64,000 bases of DNA from Candidatus Gastranaerophilales bacterium (GTDB taxonomy: Bacteria > Cyanobacteriota > Vampirovibrionia > Gastranaerophilales > Gastranaerophilaceae). The stretch spans positions 1 to 64,000 of the forward strand of contig CALUUP010000004.1 in assembly GCA_944323985.1 (NCBI GenBank). The letters are read 5' to 3'. Positions 14,866 through 42,043 of the stretch are shown piece by piece; the first letter of the stretch is position 1; every line of letters starts with the position of its first letter. The notes beneath the pieces are model-generated. The model saw nothing but the letters and a program-made list of their open reading frames with translations, made no database searches and was not told where the DNA came from. A program made the position numbers and the translations under genes.

Positions 14866-15927
14866 ATGGGTGATGAAGATAAACAATTTGATGCCACGCC
14901 CCAAAAGTTAGAAAGAGCAAGAAAAGAAGGGCAAGTTGTAAAATCAAAAGATGTGTCTACGGCATTATCTTTATTGGTAATGTTTTCATTCATAAACCTA
15001 TTAGCTCCTGTTATGTGGAAGCTTATTGTCGGTTTGTTTCGAACTTTGTATGAGCAAATTCCTAATCAACACTTATCAGAAATAGGTCTTCCTTATATGT
15101 TTACGGTTTCTATAATTCCTACAGTTGCTATAATAGGTTCTATTTTATTTGTTGCAGCTTTTGTAGCGATAATAGGAGATTTTATACAAGTTGGACCTTT
15201 AGTTGCTACAGCACCACTAGTTCCAAAACTTGATAAATTAAATCCTACTAAATATTTTAAAAATTTATTTCAAGTAAAAACTTTATTCGAACTTGGAAAA
15301 AATATTGTTAAGGTATTGGTATTAGGTTTAGTAGGTTGGACTGTTTATCGAGACCATTTAGAAAGTATACTGATGCTAGCAGCTATTGATAATCATTTTG
15401 CTATTATGATAGAATTTGGTAAATTAATAGTTGAATTTATATATAAAGCTTGTATTGCTTTTTTAATAATAGCAGCTGCCGATTATGGTGTTACAAAATG
15501 GAAATTTTTAAAAGATCAAAAAATGTCTTTTAAGGAAATTAAAGATGAATATAAAAACTCTGAAGGTGACCCTCACGTAAAAGCTGCTCTTAGACAAAGA
15601 CGTATGCAAATGTTACAACAAGGAGCTATGGATTCTGTGCCTGATGCAGATTTTGTTGTAAGAAATCCTACCCACGTTGCTTGTGCTTTAAAATATGATG
15701 CAGAAACTATGCAATCTCCTACTTTAACAGCAAAAGGAACAGAACTTATTGCTAAAAAAATTATTGATATTGCAATTCAACATAATGTACCTGTTATTGA
15801 CAATGCTCCTGTTGCTAGAGCTTTATTCCGAATGGTGGATTTGAATCAAGAAATTCCTCCGGAATTATATAAAGCTGTTGCTGAAATCTTATTATTTGTT
15901 TATGGTTTAAAAAACAAACAGAATTAG
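14866..15927 (+). CDS. flhB: FlhB/SctU-family type III export switch protein
   Basis: A complete 353-residue FlhB homologue. It opens DATPQKLERARKEGQVVKSKD, the family N-terminal signature, and has four membrane segments between about 30 and 215. The linker is KMSFKEIKDEYKNSEGDPHVK, and the autocleaving NPTH motif is at about 267-270. The tail DNAPVARALF...EIPPELYKAVAEILLFVY also matches. FlhB sits at the flagellar or type III export gate and switches substrate class after self-cleavage. No other flagellar membrane gene is nearby, but a FlhA-like cytoplasmic domain is encoded at 36.9-38.3 kb. A sigma factor gene follows. Confidence 0.92.
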   Translation: MGDEDKQFDATPQKLERARKEGQVVKSKDVSTALSLLVMFSFINLLAPVMWKLIVGLFRTLYEQIPNQHLSEIGLPYMFTVSIIPTVAIIGSILFVAAFVAIIGDFIQVGPLVATAPLVPKLDKLNPTKYFKNLFQVKTLFELGKNIVKVLVLGLVGWTVYRDHLESILMLAAIDNHFAIMIEFGKLIVEFIYKACIAFLIIAAADYGVTKWKFLKDQKMSFKEIKDEYKNSEGDPHVKAALRQRRMQMLQQGAMDSVPDADFVVRNPTHVACALKYDAETMQSPTLTAKGTELIAKKIIDIAIQHNVPVIDNAPVARALFRMVDLNQEIPPELYKAVAEILLFVYGLKNKQN

Positions 15928-16008: not shown

Positions 16009-16707
16009 ATGGATAATAAAACTTTAATTAAACAATACGTTGGTATTGTGCAAAAAATAGCGAAGATTGAGCATAGACGAATTCCAAATCATATGATTGA
16101 GTATGAAGAATTGGTTAGTATTGGTGTGCTTGCGATACAATCTCTTATAAAAGGTAAAACCGAAGAACAATTAGCTCATTATAATGATGCATATATTGGG
16201 ACTGCTGTAAAATGGGCGATAAGAAATGAATTAAGACATCGTTATAAATGGTATACTTTAAAACATAAAAAAGAAGACAACGAGGCTTCTGACTACACAA
16301 CAGATGCTATATCAGGAAGTAATAATGAAGATTCTTCAGAAGATATGGGCTTTAGTATTTCACCTACAAAAGTCAGAGAAGCTGTTTATGAAACAATTTT
16401 ATCTATTGATGGGTTAGCAGCCGCTGCAACTGATAATGCTTCTCCGTTTGATTTTATTAAAGACCCTTCTGCAATGCCTGATGAAAAAGCAGAAATTGTT
16501 GAAATGAGTCGTTTAATAAAACAAGCTATTGCAAAATTACCTCAAAAAGAACGTACTGTTGTTGAATATAGATTTTATAGAAATATGCAAGCTAAAGATA
16601 TTGCAACTATGGTGGGGCTTTCACCTTCTAGAATTACAAGAATTGTACAATATTCTTTAAACCAAATTAGAGAATATTTAAAAAGTAGAGGGCGAGAAGA
16701 TTATTAA
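16009..16707 (+). CDS. Sigma-70-family RNA polymerase sigma factor
   Basis: A 232-residue sigma factor with region 2 (EYEELVSIGVLAIQSLI...YIGTAVKWAIRNELRHRY, about 25-85) and region 4 (LPQKERTVVEYRFYRNMQAKDIATMVGLSPSRITRIVQYSLNQIREYL, about 175-225). The middle is acidic and poorly conserved. It is closest in layout to FliA/WhiG-type group 3 factors, and it follows flhB by 81 bases on the same strand, which fits a motility or export regulon. A role in flagellar gene control is inference. AAGAGAAG directly precedes the ATG. Confidence 0.8.
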   Translation: MDNKTLIKQYVGIVQKIAKIEHRRIPNHMIEYEELVSIGVLAIQSLIKGKTEEQLAHYNDAYIGTAVKWAIRNELRHRYKWYTLKHKKEDNEASDYTTDAISGSNNEDSSEDMGFSISPTKVREAVYETILSIDGLAAAATDNASPFDFIKDPSAMPDEKAEIVEMSRLIKQAIAKLPQKERTVVEYRFYRNMQAKDIATMVGLSPSRITRIVQYSLNQIREYLKSRGREDY

Positions 16708-36855: not shown

Positions 36856-38325
36856 TTAAATTTTTCCTATAAATTTAATATTTGCACTACTTACAAGCTC
36901 TTCATAAGCTAAAACATTTATATTTGGAATAAATTCTGATAATATAACAAAAAACATATGTCTAATATCAACAGGAACTACTATAGTCGGTTGTATTATT
37001 TTTTTTGTTTTTATATATTTTAAAATTTTTGAAGCAATTTCCTCTACTTCAGAAGCTTCGATTCTTACAATCATTTCACTTTCATCTTCTTTGAAAAAGG
37101 AATAAACTTTATCTAGAATAGAATCACTTAATTCAAAAACTTTTAATTCTCCATCAGTAGCTAAATCTTTTATTATATGTTTTGATAGTGCTAATCGAAC
37201 TTTATCTAACAAATCTTCTTTTGTTGGCTCATTTGCGTAGTCATTAATTTTTTCGAAAATATAAACTATATTTTTTACAGAAACATTTTCTCTTATAAGA
37301 CAGGTTAATAAATATTTCAAATCAGATGCTGTTATAAAATCAGGAATGATGTTATCCACTAAAAAAGAATTTGTCTCGATAACCTTTTCAACGTACTTAT
37401 TGACATCATTATAATCCATAATATCAGATACTTCTTTTATAGCAACATACTCTATAGCTTTAGCAATATATTCAGAAGCACTAAATCCAGTTGCCCAAAA
37501 GTCCTTAACTTTTTCTTTAGAAATCCATACTAGTTTTTTTCCGGTAATACAATCTTCAATAACATAATCATTTTCTGTTATTTTGTAACCTTTTATTTCA
37601 TCTTTGTAAAAGGCCATAAATTCCGGAAAAACAATAGATCTAAAAACTTCTATATCATGTATTTTTATACAAAATTCATTTTGCATAAGCTCATCACTAT
37701 TATGAAAATGAATATGTGGAATCACATAACCTAATTTTTCTGCTAGATTTTGTCTAACTTTCACGGTTTCGGCTAACAAATTATCATCTGTAGCTTCCAT
37801 TGAAATTACTTCTAATATTTCTTCTGATAAATTAACAACAAATTTTTCTTCTTTTAAATTTGAATACATTGCTTCAGGAGAAATTTCATTTATCAACTGT
37901 TGTTTTAATATAGATAATTGTTTTAGTTCGTCAGACATTTGATTGTTTAGTTGATTTTTCTTTTCAGGAGAAAGATTATCATTTTCTAATTGAGATTTGA
38001 TTTTTTTTATTCTTTCTTTTTGATTAGAAATTTTTAATTGAATTTCTTTACAAGAAGCATAAGGACTAGATGGTGCTGCTAACATTTTTTCCATTCTGTA
38101 TTTAAAACTGGTAATATTTACAATATCATCTAAATCAGTAGAATCTTCTTCTTGTTTTTCCTTCATAAAAATACAATTGAAATCAAAAGAAGAATCTGTT
38201 TCAACTTCATGCATAGTATATAAATCCCAACCGGCATCTGACATTTCATTTAGTAGGTTTTCTAGAGCCTGTTTGTCATCAGTAGGTACAGATTTTATAA
38301 TATACTGCATTTTTTTGTTAAACAT
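36856..38325 (-). CDS. DUF4177 domain fused to soluble FlhA C-terminal domain
   Basis: A 489-residue cytoplasmic protein. Residues 5-50 (QYIIKSVPTDDKQALENLLNEMSDAGWDLY) match DUF4177; 85-135 are coiled coil; 150-489 match FlhA_C. The FlhA-like blocks are VRQNLAEKLGYVIPHIHFHN, NEFCIKIHDIEV, WISKEKVKDFWATGFSASEYI, VDNIIPDFITASDLKYLLTCLIRENVSVKNIVYIFEKI, VRLALSKHI and the ending VVPVDIRHMFFVILSEFIPNINVLAYEEL. FlhA_C is the docking ring for export chaperones. The eight-helix FlhA channel domain is absent. I chose ATG 38325, with GAGG 6 bases upstream; it begins inside deoA. It is the last gene of bamA-skp-deoA. Function is unknown. Confidence 0.8.
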   Translation of the reverse strand: MFNKKMQYIIKSVPTDDKQALENLLNEMSDAGWDLYTMHEVETDSSFDFNCIFMKEKQEEDSTDLDDIVNITSFKYRMEKMLAAPSSPYASCKEIQLKISNQKERIKKIKSQLENDNLSPEKKNQLNNQMSDELKQLSILKQQLINEISPEAMYSNLKEEKFVVNLSEEILEVISMEATDDNLLAETVKVRQNLAEKLGYVIPHIHFHNSDELMQNEFCIKIHDIEVFRSIVFPEFMAFYKDEIKGYKITENDYVIEDCITGKKLVWISKEKVKDFWATGFSASEYIAKAIEYVAIKEVSDIMDYNDVNKYVEKVIETNSFLVDNIIPDFITASDLKYLLTCLIRENVSVKNIVYIFEKINDYANEPTKEDLLDKVRLALSKHIIKDLATDGELKVFELSDSILDKVYSFFKEDESEMIVRIEASEVEEIASKILKYIKTKKIIQPTIVVPVDIRHMFFVILSEFIPNINVLAYEELVSSANIKFIGKI

Positions 38326-39649
38326 CTTCTTCCTCATCTTCTGTTTTTATAATTTTAAATATTAAATTATTATGAATTGGCTTATTATCATTAATTAAAA
38401 ACGCTTCGTCACAAACTTTTTGAGCAACTCTTGTTTTATCTTCATCATTTGAATATATAGTATAAAGTATTTCTCCTTTATTTACATACTCTCCACTTTT
38501 TTTATTTAAGAATATTCCAACACTGCAGTCAATTTTATCATTAGAATTTTCTCTGCTTGCGCCTAATATTTTTGAAGCTTTTGCAATATTAAAGGCGTTA
38601 ATTTTTTGAACATAACCGCTTTTTTTTGATTCACATTCTATTTTAAATTCAGGTAATTCAAATTTATCATAATTATCTACCACATCAGGATTTCCACCTT
38701 GAGCAGATATTAATTCCTTGCATTTATCAATTGCTTTTCCTGAATCAATTAAATTATGTAAAAACATTTCAGCTTCTTTTTTATCATCATAAAGACCTAA
38801 GTTTATTAATATAATTTTAGCAATAGCAAAAGTAAGATCTGCTAAATCCCCTGATTTAATATTTCCTTTTAGAAATTCCATTGATTCAATAACTTCAATA
38901 GAGTTTCCAATTGCTCTACCCAAAGGTTCTTCCATAGAAGTAACTATAGCTAATATTTTTCTATCCAAAATTTTTCCTATATTAACCATCATTTTTGACA
39001 AACTAACAGCCTCTTCTGGAGTTTTCATAAAAGCTCCAGAACCATATTTTACATCTAAAACAATATTACTCGCTCCAGAAGCAATTTTTTTAGATAGAAT
39101 TGAAGATGCAATTAAAGAAATATTATCAGTAGTAGTTGTTAAATTTCTCAATGCTTGTAATTTTTTATCTGCAGGTGCTAAATTTTCATTTTGAGATGCA
39201 ATTACAGCATTATGTTCTTTTACCATAGATATTATGTTCTCAATTGTTAAAACAGAATCAAATCCAGGAATAGATTCTAATTTATCAACGGTTCCGGCAG
39301 CGTGCCCAATACCTCTGTCTGAAATTTTTGCTATTGGTATTCCTGCAGCAGCAAGTAAAGGTATTAATGTTATTGTAACTTTATCACCAACACCACCTGT
39401 AGAATGTTTATCTACAATAGAATCTTTTAATTCTTCAAAATCAATGACTTTACCCGAAAAAGCCAAAGCTTCTGTTAAATAAGCAGTTTCTAATTCTGTT
39501 AATCCATTAAATGTTACAGCCATTAGCCAGGCTGACATTTGTGAATCAGCAATAATACCATTTACAAAAGAATTTATTAAATAATTAATTTCTTCTTTTG
39601 TGTGCGTTTTACCTTTTTTCTTTTTTTCTATTATATCAATAATTTTCAT
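38318..39649 (-). CDS. deoA: Pyrimidine-nucleoside/thymidine phosphorylase
   Basis: A 443-residue enzyme that splits thymidine or uridine with phosphate into base and (deoxy)ribose 1-phosphate. The family signature is clear: KHSTGGVGDKVTITLIPLLAAAGIPIAKISDRGIGHAAGTVDKLESIPGF (about 80-130), and LDVKYGSGAFMKT near 198. The C-terminal domain is standard. Its start overlaps the stop of the skp-like gene as TAATG, indicating coupling. A salvage enzyme downstream of bamA-skp is an unusual context. Confidence 0.95.
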   Translation of the reverse strand: MKIIDIIEKKKKGKTHTKEEINYLINSFVNGIIADSQMSAWLMAVTFNGLTELETAYLTEALAFSGKVIDFEELKDSIVDKHSTGGVGDKVTITLIPLLAAAGIPIAKISDRGIGHAAGTVDKLESIPGFDSVLTIENIISMVKEHNAVIASQNENLAPADKKLQALRNLTTTTDNISLIASSILSKKIASGASNIVLDVKYGSGAFMKTPEEAVSLSKMMVNIGKILDRKILAIVTSMEEPLGRAIGNSIEVIESMEFLKGNIKSGDLADLTFAIAKIILINLGLYDDKKEAEMFLHNLIDSGKAIDKCKELISAQGGNPDVVDNYDKFELPEFKIECESKKSGYVQKINAFNIAKASKILGASRENSNDKIDCSVGIFLNKKSGEYVNKGEILYTIYSNDEDKTRVAQKVCDEAFLINDNKPIHNNLIFKIIKTEDEEEDV

Positions 39650-40098
39650 TATTTTTTAGCGCCTTTAAGCTTAGAAATAACACTGTCTGTTATATCTACA
39701 CCTCCAACAAAAACACCTCTTACATCCATAACAGCATCTAATTTTTGTTCTACCATAACAGCTTTTGCGGCATCTTTTATTTTTGTATAAACTTCTTGTT
39801 CTCTTTTATTTTTTAAAGCAACATAAGCAGCTTCTTTTGTTTTAAACTCTTGAGCGACTTTTTCTTCAAAAGTTTGTTTTTTTAACGGAGTATCTAAAGA
39901 TTTATATTCCTTTTCTTTGTCAACTAAAAATTGTTGCATTTCTAAACCTTTAGCATCAACTTCTTTTGTAACTTGTTTTGCATAATCATAATTATCAATA
40001 ACTTTAGCGTAATCAATATACCCAACACCTCCGGCAAAAGATAATCCGGTAGTTATCAACAATGATAAAGCAATAAGTCCTAATTTAAAATTTTTCAT
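39649..40098 (-). CDS. OmpH/Skp-family periplasmic chaperone (second copy)
   Basis: The 149-residue protein has a signal peptide (LIALSLLITTGLSFA), VGYIDYAKVIDNYDYAKQVTKEVDAKG, a coiled-coil middle and the ending LDAVMDVRGVFVGGVDITDSVISKLKG. This is the full Skp/OmpH pattern, here in its classical place after bamA. The end has the usual small hydrophobic strand. GGAGG precedes the ATG. It presumably carries outer-membrane proteins to BamA. Confidence 0.9.
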   Translation of the reverse strand: MKNFKLGLIALSLLITTGLSFAGGVGYIDYAKVIDNYDYAKQVTKEVDAKGLEMQQFLVDKEKEYKSLDTPLKKQTFEEKVAQEFKTKEAAYVALKNKREQEVYTKIKDAAKAVMVEQKLDAVMDVRGVFVGGVDITDSVISKLKGAKK

Positions 40099-40138: not shown

Positions 40139-42043
40139 TTAATACATCATGTCACCAACACCAAAAGTGAAGTAACCGTTAGGTGATCCATTTGGTCCCG
40201 GATTTGTAAGAGGGAAACCATAGTCTATTGATAAAGGTCCAATTCCAGGCATATTGATTTTTAAACCTATACCCGCTGTGATAGCTTGAATTGGTCTATC
40301 ATAAATTACACTTGATATGGTTGGATCAAATACTTTACCGGCATCAACCCAGAATGTTAATCTTAAATTCTGTAAGAAATTTACTTTTAGTCTATCAACA
40401 AAAGGTATTGGAGTTGCAAGTTCCGCAGAACCCATAATAAAAGCTGTACCTGTACCTACACCGTTGACTTTATAACCTCTTATAGTGTATGGACCTCCTA
40501 AACGATAAGCCATAACTTCCGGCATATCATCACCATGAACTTTTATACCACCTCTTCCAGTAAATGTTAATGATGATTTTTTAGCTATAGGAATATATTT
40601 TTTAGCCATACCTGTCAAACGCCCGTTTGTCTTTCCAAAACCATCTAAGCCGAAAGCTTCTTCATAACGTACGGATGCTAAAACACCATTTCTAGGATTT
40701 ACAGAAGAATCTCTTGAGTCATAAGCAAGTCCCGGTGCTAATCTTAAGAAGAATCCTCCTTCTAATTGTTTAGCTCTTTCTGCGATATCTAAACCGTGAT
40801 TTTTGTATAATTGAGCTATGTTGGCAGCATCTCCTTCACTTAGATGTATATATTCCACTCCTGAAGTAAATGTTGTTGACATATTTCTGTTAAATTTAAG
40901 TCTGTGAGCTACTGTTCCTTCTATTCCAATTCTTCTTTCTATTGCTAATGGAACTTGATAGCTACCTAAATCTCTGAAATAAATTTTGCTCATCAAAGAG
41001 TTGTCGGCATTTAAGAAATGTGGCTCAAAGAAACTTAATTCTGCCTGATAATTCATGTGACTTTTGATGGAAGAGTCACTCATTAAAATACCGGAACCAA
41101 CCATGCCTGTTAAAGAAACTCTTTGGTTCATTCCTCTAAAATTGTTATCAGAAATACCAACAGAACCAAAAGCCCCTGTTGCAGAATCTAAGCCGCCACC
41201 TATAGAAACGGATGCCGTTCTTTGTTCTTTTAGTTCAATAGTGACATCAAATTTATCAGGATCTTCTTCTGATACTTCAATAGTTCTATTAACATCTTTA
41301 AATGCTTGGGTAGAATATAATCTAACTAAATCTTGTTTAACTTGATTTTCATTATAAACAGAACCAGGTTCTGTCATTATATTTCTTTCAATGATATACT
41401 CTTTAGTTTTTTCATTTCCAGTAATCATTATTTTGTTAATTTTACCTTCGGTAATACTCAAATTTAATGTTCCGTCAGGATCATCATAAATAGAGTCTAT
41501 TTTGGAAAGAATATAACCTTTTGAATAATAACATTGATTAATTTGTTCCATTGCTTGATTAATAGCTGTTATATTTTGGGGTTTTCCTTTTAAAGGCAAT
41601 AAATACTGCATAATTTCATCACTTGAAACTACAGTATTACCTTCTATTGTAAAATCAGTAACAGGAATGTTTTCTTCAACAATTATTTTTAAAGAAATTG
41701 TACCATTAGAATTCTTTATAGGGATAGCTTTCATTCTTTCTGTAAAATATCCCATTCTGTAGATAGTTTTTAAATCTTGTTGCATAACATCTTTATCATA
41801 TAAACTTCCTTTTTGTAAAGTTAGCTTAGATAAAATGTATTCTGGTCTTATAATATTAGACCCCAATATTTCAATGTCATTTATGTAGGCAGTATTACTA
41901 TCATAGGTTGATTCTTCAATATAATCAAGTTCATTCTCATCAGGAATTTCTTCAGCACAAACAGAATTGGAATAAAGCCCTAAACTCCCTATTACAATTA
42001 AAAAAACTATTAAATTTTTATATAAAAACGATAGATTTTTCAA
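40139..42043 (-). CDS. bamA: BamA/Omp85 outer-membrane assembly factor
   Basis: A 634-residue protein with a signal peptide (to about CAEE) and then three POTRA domains (about 45-115, 116-195, 196-270; each with the YxxG... GxI pattern such as MEQINQCYYSKGYILSKI). A 16-strand barrel follows. The L6 motif VRGY-like IRGYKVNG near 515, and the final KINMPGIGPLSIDYGFPL...GYFTFGVGDMMY, are typical. Three POTRAs and a terminal methionine-tyrosine end resemble cyanobacterial Omp85. It folds barrels into the outer membrane. Confidence 0.95.
   Translation of the reverse strand: MKNLSFLYKNLIVFLIVIGSLGLYSNSVCAEEIPDENELDYIEESTYDSNTAYINDIEILGSNIIRPEYILSKLTLQKGSLYDKDVMQQDLKTIYRMGYFTERMKAIPIKNSNGTISLKIIVEENIPVTDFTIEGNTVVSSDEIMQYLLPLKGKPQNITAINQAMEQINQCYYSKGYILSKIDSIYDDPDGTLNLSITEGKINKIMITGNEKTKEYIIERNIMTEPGSVYNENQVKQDLVRLYSTQAFKDVNRTIEVSEEDPDKFDVTIELKEQRTASVSIGGGLDSATGAFGSVGISDNNFRGMNQRVSLTGMVGSGILMSDSSIKSHMNYQAELSFFEPHFLNADNSLMSKIYFRDLGSYQVPLAIERRIGIEGTVAHRLKFNRNMSTTFTSGVEYIHLSEGDAANIAQLYKNHGLDIAERAKQLEGGFFLRLAPGLAYDSRDSSVNPRNGVLASVRYEEAFGLDGFGKTNGRLTGMAKKYIPIAKKSSLTFTGRGGIKVHGDDMPEVMAYRLGGPYTIRGYKVNGVGTGTAFIMGSAELATPIPFVDRLKVNFLQNLRLTFWVDAGKVFDPTISSVIYDRPIQAITAGIGLKINMPGIGPLSIDYGFPLTNPGPNGSPNGYFTFGVGDMMY

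Follow-up and report, generated by a model that had tools for sequence, protein, structure and literature searches.

FlhA has so far been studied as a nine-fold ring tethered beneath a membrane channel, and FlhX of the Campylobacterota is a soluble homologue or paralogue of FlhB_C, the cytoplasmic domain of FlhB. FlhX has been listed among secretion-system proteins (PMC9321776). The nine-fold ring of the cytoplasmic domain of FlhA (FlhA_C) is built by D1-D3 and D3-D3 contacts (PMC7911332); FliJ binds in the D4 cleft, chaperones use a dimple with residues Asp-456, Phe-459 and Thr-490 (PMC8166844), and the GYXLI motif is required for domain motion of FlhA_C (PMC10965912). The protein described here, designated sFlhA, resembles the cytoplasmic part of the FlhA/SctV family (FHIPEP) in its full D1-D4 fold and in a linker motif of the PxxMY type that it has in common with FlhA2, one of the full FlhA proteins of the same genome. 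It differs from the family in lacking the membrane channel, in the addition of a DUF4177-like domain and a coiled coil, in the loss of GYXLI, in an altered dimple and in a relaxed D4. Like FlhX, it is a free cytoplasmic-domain paralogue of an export-gate protein present beside the full-length one, but it derives from FlhA rather than FlhB, is fused to another domain and belongs to a different phylum. No description of a soluble FlhA_C paralogue like sFlhA was found in the literature searched, in which FlhA is nowhere mentioned together with DUF4177.

The window, by which we mean the whole 64-kb stretch of DNA that was analysed, contains sFlhA as an open reading frame of 493 amino acids on the minus strand (38337-36856). 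The start at the ATG at 38325, which gives 489 amino acids with the same end coordinate as in the preliminary description of this DNA, is preferred because the Shine-Dalgarno stretch AGGAAGAAG lies just 5' of it, because it overlaps the stop codon of the upstream deoA-like gene as ATGTTTAA, and because this Met is nearly invariant among the 29 sFlhA relatives compared. That description was right about the gene and its architecture and wrong about the strand. Residue numbers of the domains refer to the 493-residue frame. The features of the window are as follows.

14866-15927, plus strand: flhB2, the switch protein of the second export set (PF01312, 7e-110), not adjacent to sFlhA
16009-16707, plus strand: sigma-70-like factor directly 3' of flhB2
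36856-38325, minus strand: coding sequence of sFlhA (489 amino acids from the preferred start)
36859-37182, minus strand: FlhA_C D4 and C terminus (residues 386-493), relaxed, 21-22% identity to FlhA2
37183-37419, minus strand: FlhA_C D3 (residues 307-385), ring-building, the best kept relative to FlhA2 (38% identity)
37420-37845, minus strand: FlhA_C D1 and D2 (residues 165-306), with SEEIL at the GYXLI site, dimple residue Asp-456 kept and Phe-459 replaced by Thr
37882-38064, minus strand: helical hairpin or coiled coil (residues 92-152), its second helix aligning with the FlhA linker region
38065-38154, minus strand: tether (residues 62-91), modelled with low confidence and probably disordered (residues 62-94 have a pLDDT below 50)
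38158-38310, minus strand: N-terminal β-α-β-β domain, DUF4177-like (residues 10-60)
38318-39649, minus strand: deoA-like pyrimidine nucleoside phosphorylase gene, upstream of sFlhA and overlapping its preferred start by 8 bases
39649-40098, minus strand: skp/OmpH-like gene, upstream of the deoA-like gene
40139-42043, minus strand: bamA (POTRA and Omp85)

The FHIPEP profile (PF00771) matches residues 133-484 with an E value of 5.3e-46 and begins only at profile position 321, running to 655 of 657. The NCBIfam scores, 140.7 bits for TIGR01398 (cut-off 772) and 90.8 bits for TIGR01399 (cut-off 692), lie below the FlhA/SctV equivalog cut-offs, and the PDB chains matched in a sequence search were those of FlhA_C and SctV_C. 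In an AlphaFold2 monomer model (43 relatives in the alignment, mean pLDDT 79), two long helices at residues 92-117 and 124-152 precede a mixed domain that extends from residue 165. Foldseek placed the C-terminal part of the model on FlhA_C/SctV_C chains with an E value of 1e-20 and a target TM score of 0.75-0.84 for most of the top hits, and a second aligner superimposed 339 residues on the nonameric Vibrio FlhA_C (7amy) with a Z score of 30.0 at 16% identity. Residues 165-493 are therefore predicted to be a complete FlhA_C/SctV_C fold comprising D1-D4, in keeping with the preliminary description, which had assigned the C-terminal residues to the whole FlhA cytoplasmic domain and had reported the membrane helices missing. 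The N-terminal membrane domain of FlhA/SctV, with about eight helices, is indeed absent: no segment of sFlhA reaches the hydropathy of a membrane helix (best value 1.67, versus 2.87-2.89 in the two full FlhA proteins), and no FlhA membrane domain or remnant of one was found elsewhere in the window near the gene.

When modelled alone, the N-terminal domain has a β-α-β-β structure with a pLDDT of about 92 over its core, and at 53% mean pairwise identity it is the most conserved part of the sFlhA family. DUF4177 (PF13783), a β-α-β-β domain of about 55 residues, matches this region in all 29 members compared, more than any other Pfam family (best E value 0.0014). The window protein scores 14.4 bits, below the curated gathering cut-off of 25, and for this reason the identity as DUF4177 is regarded as probable rather than proven; fusion to FlhA_C is a further difference from DUF4177. 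Foldseek returned no significant structural match for the domain (best E value 0.055), and its sequence profile found no relative in the PDB. The second structure aligner gave Z scores of 6.0 at most against the PDB, and the matches at that level, to KCTD5, GNAT and similar small α/β pieces, are uninformative, so that assignment of a function from structure was rejected. The earlier division of residues 1-135 into a DUF4177-like domain and a coiled coil is borne out by the β-α-β-β unit and the helices, with a DUF4177 match that is consistent but weak.

Nearly all genomes searched within the genus contain an orthologue of sFlhA of the same length and layout, and such orthologues occur at 30-40% identity in six further families of the Gastranaerophilales, the gut and rumen Melainabacteria. 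A search of 386 genomes of the phylum with the N-terminal part found sFlhA across the whole family and in both other families of the order that were sampled, and nowhere outside the Gastranaerophilales in this sample of class and phylum; the weak matches in G066 and G092 fall within the range of full FlhA. Relative to close relatives, sFlhA has a dN/dS of about 0.03-0.045. It is confirmed as a genuine conserved gene across nearly all Gastranaerophilales searched, an unbroken fusion of a soluble FlhA_C to a DUF4177-like domain as first proposed, and its range and conservation exceed what the preliminary description could know. It is also less exotic than the title of that description suggests, since full FlhA is present in the same genome. 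The closest relative of the window's genome (G042; C26, L054) has sFlhA, one FliP and one FlhB and no match to a full FlhA, which could reflect a gap in an assembly that is 93% complete.

Searches of the window's genome for canonical FlhA and flagellar genes revealed two full FlhA, two FlhB, two FliP and two FliF. FlhA1 is grouped with FliO, FliP and FlhB1 and belongs to the flagellum, a true form of which is marked by FlgD and flagellins. FlhA2 is grouped with FliE, FliF, an unrecognised 346-residue protein and FliH, and belongs to a second flagellar-type export set, designated Sys2, which persists in genomes that lack flagellin and FlgD. The composition of Sys2 was reconstructed from matches to protein families and from individual stretches of sequence, and the set is present throughout the Gastranaerophilales. 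Four genomes of the order (G065, G066, G067 and G081) and the class relative G095 contain FliF, and neither flagellin nor FlgD was found in them; proteins of the size of the rod proteins FlgB and FlgC remain in most flagellum-less members of the order. In G065, a short unknown gene lies between a FliJ2-like and an FlgE/G-like gene, all three in a row, and FlgB/C/F/G-like genes are also present. The full FlhB noted earlier at a distance of 21 kb from sFlhA is real; it is FlhB2, part of this second, non-flagellar set and not of the flagellum. The sigma-70-like factor beside flhB2, a pair also kept in the flagellum-less G065 (L184:7860-8519), may control Sys2.

Several observations bear on the make-up of the two sets. 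Two complete-looking export gates occur in one genome (G000:C11 7580-13600, in L035:7535-13614; G000:C10, in L034; and 14866-15927 of the window). The parts of Sys2 are FliE, FliF, the 346-residue protein, FliH, FlhA2, FliP2, FlhB2, and rod-type and FliJ/FliK-like proteins, with G065 loci at L178, L181, L184, L200 and L206. The 346-residue protein (L035:10428-11468, orthologues in L177-L180) has no family match above the family's cut-off and lies between FliF2 and FliH2, the usual place of FliG; two adjacent relatives of it occupy this gap in G074. In G078 (L154, C11:11700-16300), flhA1 and flhA2 are side by side and convergent. Matches to the flagellin N terminus lie within very long frames in G032 (C16:11447-11854, 2085 amino acids), G074 (C2:401045-401440, 1557 amino acids) and G079 (C1:803692-804087, 951 amino acids), and these three genomes have eight or nine flagellin-type matches each. 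According to Soo et al. (PMC4040986), six of the nine genomes available in 2014 had only a subset of the flagellar genes, which was taken as loss of the flagellum; FlhA and type III appear nowhere in that text, and neither Sys2 nor sFlhA is described there. Sys2 probably explains that subset. No type III system of the Gastranaerophilales is described in the literature searched, part of which consisted of titles and the beginnings of abstracts.

In a tree of FlhA_C sequences with E. coli FlhA as the outgroup, sFlhA falls into one group with the FlhA2 of the order and that of G092 (support 99/97), and this group joins the FlhA of four members of the class (G093, G095, G103 and G105) at 100/100, and FlhA1 is separate at 100/100. 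sFlhA has a single origin (100/100) and a stem of 1.1-1.3 changes per site, and it descends from the FlhA2 lineage. Eight genomes (G065, G081, G124, G126, G127, G129, G132 and G133) have FlhA2 and sFlhA with no match to FlhA1; sFlhA is therefore independent of the flagellum. FlhA2 is found alone, without sFlhA, in G066 and G067, so that sFlhA is not strictly co-inherited with Sys2 and Sys2 can apparently exist without it. Because Sys2 occurs throughout the order, the co-occurrence of FlhA2 and sFlhA is weak evidence of a link between them, and descent is the stronger.

The four domains of FlhA_C have fared differently in sFlhA. With domain limits and ring contacts taken from PMC7911332, the mean identity between sFlhA and FlhA2 is 35% in D1, 18% in D2, 38% in D3 and 21% in D4, as compared with 34, 21, 32 and 35%, respectively, between FlhA1 and FlhA2. 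The drop in D4 exceeds the contrast between FlhA1 and FlhA2 (bootstrap P 0.002), and D4 is therefore specifically relaxed; the same proposal for D2 was rejected, since its drop is comparable to that contrast (P 0.26). D1 and D3 of sFlhA are as conserved relative to FlhA2 as those of FlhA1, which suggests that ring or gate contacts are still under selection.

The reading that we tentatively favour, as plausible if still short of probable, is that sFlhA is a non-transporting, ring-capable, soluble accessory or regulator of the Sys2 gate. sFlhA is a genuine and ancient paralogue of the cytoplasmic domain of FlhA2, in which the DUF4177-like domain, the flexible tether and the helical hairpin have taken the place of the membrane channel. 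D1 and D3 would enable sFlhA to assemble into a ring of its own, or else to enter or cap that of FlhA2_C, and D2 and D4 would have given up the docking of FliJ and the usual chaperones. The N-terminal domain would act as an input through which a further ligand or partner reaches the gate, and sFlhA would thereby tune export by Sys2. Computation supports the fold, the architecture, the selection, the descent, the taxonomic range, the presence without a flagellum and the pattern of kept and relaxed domains, whereas ring formation, contact with FlhA2 and a regulatory role are inferred. The preliminary description had offered a decoy regulator among its suggestions, which is possible and close to this reading.

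The main rival is exaptation, in which duplication was followed by recruitment of the FlhA_C fold to a task outside type III export, such as one in envelope biogenesis or nucleotide metabolism, and the DUF4177-like domain would be the working end of an adaptor; we consider it somewhat unlikely but a serious contender. It would account for the strong conservation of the N-terminal domain, where dN over the first 156 codons is 3-4.5 times lower than in the remainder, for the loss of export-specific motifs, and for the two genomes that keep Sys2 without sFlhA. The neighbourhood also seems to favour it at first: sFlhA does follow bamA-skp-deoA in the window, as was claimed, and the order bamA-skp-(deoA)-sFlhA recurs in nearly all of the 80 named loci of family f1. 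The linkage fails beyond this one family, however, and within it many rumen species lack deoA in the cluster but retain sFlhA there. In family f7, sFlhA follows infC-rplT, and in the other families its neighbours are infC-rplT or unrelated genes. Because it is retained in one family only, the bamA-skp operon was set aside as a functional clue; the outer-membrane assembly context stressed in the preliminary description is thus family-specific, and, with neighbours that differ between families, the neighbourhood does not fix the function. A flagellar link was rejected likewise. In G074 and G079, of one genus, fliJ-fliK-flgD-flgE come next after sFlhA; this linkage is treated as local, because the sister genus G082 does not show it and because genomes without FlgD or flagellin retain sFlhA. 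These flagellar genes are the sole export-gene neighbours seen, and in none of the genomes read does sFlhA lie in a Sys2 operon or linked to Sys2 genes, which counts against the favoured reading, as does its absence from G066 and G067. Besides the limits of the bamA-skp linkage, the conservation of D1 and D3 relative to FlhA2, which equals that of FlhA1, speaks against exaptation.

Next in order is a docking hub in the cytosol, where FlhA_C, as a free ring, would gather export chaperones and substrates and pass them to the gate. The complete four-domain fold and the retention of the dimple residue Asp-456 in 11 of 12 sFlhA sequences are in its favour, but Asp-456 is the only one of the three dimple residues that remains: position 459 is Thr, Asn, Ser or Leu in the 12 sequences compared, and position 490 is variable, mostly Ser, Glu, Lys or Arg. 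The GYXLI motif (368-372) has also gone, with Ser at 368 and Glu at 370 in 12 of 12 (S-x-E). Given the roles of these residues (PMC8166844, PMC10965912) and the relaxed D4, the export-chaperone hub of the preliminary description, in its canonical sense, is weakened to the point of being unlikely; a different docking surface for Sys2 chaperones on sFlhA is possible. We regard as more doubtful still a decoy or dominant-negative brake, whereby sFlhA subunits would be built into the FlhA ring of one or the other system and obstruct it. The ring-building D1 and D3 are kept and the channel is absent, and dominance over the wild type is known in Salmonella for defective alleles of full-length FlhA (PMC3139655), but the stem length cited above places sFlhA far from both FlhA_C, and a simple blocker that occurs in almost all genomes would have to be regulated, of which no sign was seen. 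That sFlhA is a broken flhA, whether by decay to a pseudogene or by a frameshift with loss of the membrane domain, has the missing membrane domain as its sole point and is rejected as scarcely credible: of about 90 members listed, nearly all have intact frames, dN/dS is about 0.03, the replacement N terminus is conserved, no membrane-domain remnant lies nearby and two intact full FlhA proteins are encoded elsewhere in the genome.

Other free or re-fused forms of FlhA_C occur in related genomes. A protein of 995 residues (L194:2197-5184, G011:C17) has an N terminus that by eye is like the 346-residue Sys2 protein, hydrophobic segments, FlhA_C and a FliI-like ATPase domain (PF00006, 1.9e-38; PF18269, 7e-14) whose P-loop looks degraded; a 598-residue relative (L195:2086-3882, G001:C30) is without the ATPase part. 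A 335-residue FlhA_C relative with hydrophobic segments (L174:3972-4979, G081:C24) comes right after two genes with Gate domains (PF07670). Small free FlhA_C proteins of 210-285 amino acids, most of them 210-220 with a further form of 285, have D1 and D3 without D2 and D4 (L197:848-1489, L198:3301-3954, L175:4407-5069 and L196:2567-3424), in line with a reuse of the ring part; those of L197 and L198 adjoin the same 810-residue gene. Small FlhA_C matches were also found in G005, G008, G017 and G001, and none, at the thresholds applied, in the genome of the window itself. In the tree the free and re-fused forms group with FlhA2 and sFlhA, in an order that is unsure and on long branches.

A wider picture, possible but doubtful as a whole, is that the Gastranaerophilales run a filament-less second flagellar-type export machine whose gate would be regulated by a soluble FlhA_C ring with a ligand-sensing DUF4177-like domain, and that FlhA_C has served more than once in this order as a free ring module, in sFlhA, in the small D1-D3 proteins and in the fusion to an unrecognised Sys2 protein and a FliI-like ATPase. 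Sys2 in gut Melainabacteria probably lies behind the earlier reports of incomplete flagella. An order-wide, strongly selected FlhA_C without a channel would separate the docking-ring function from the transport function in nature, and sFlhA would suggest that a type III gate can be controlled by a soluble protein.
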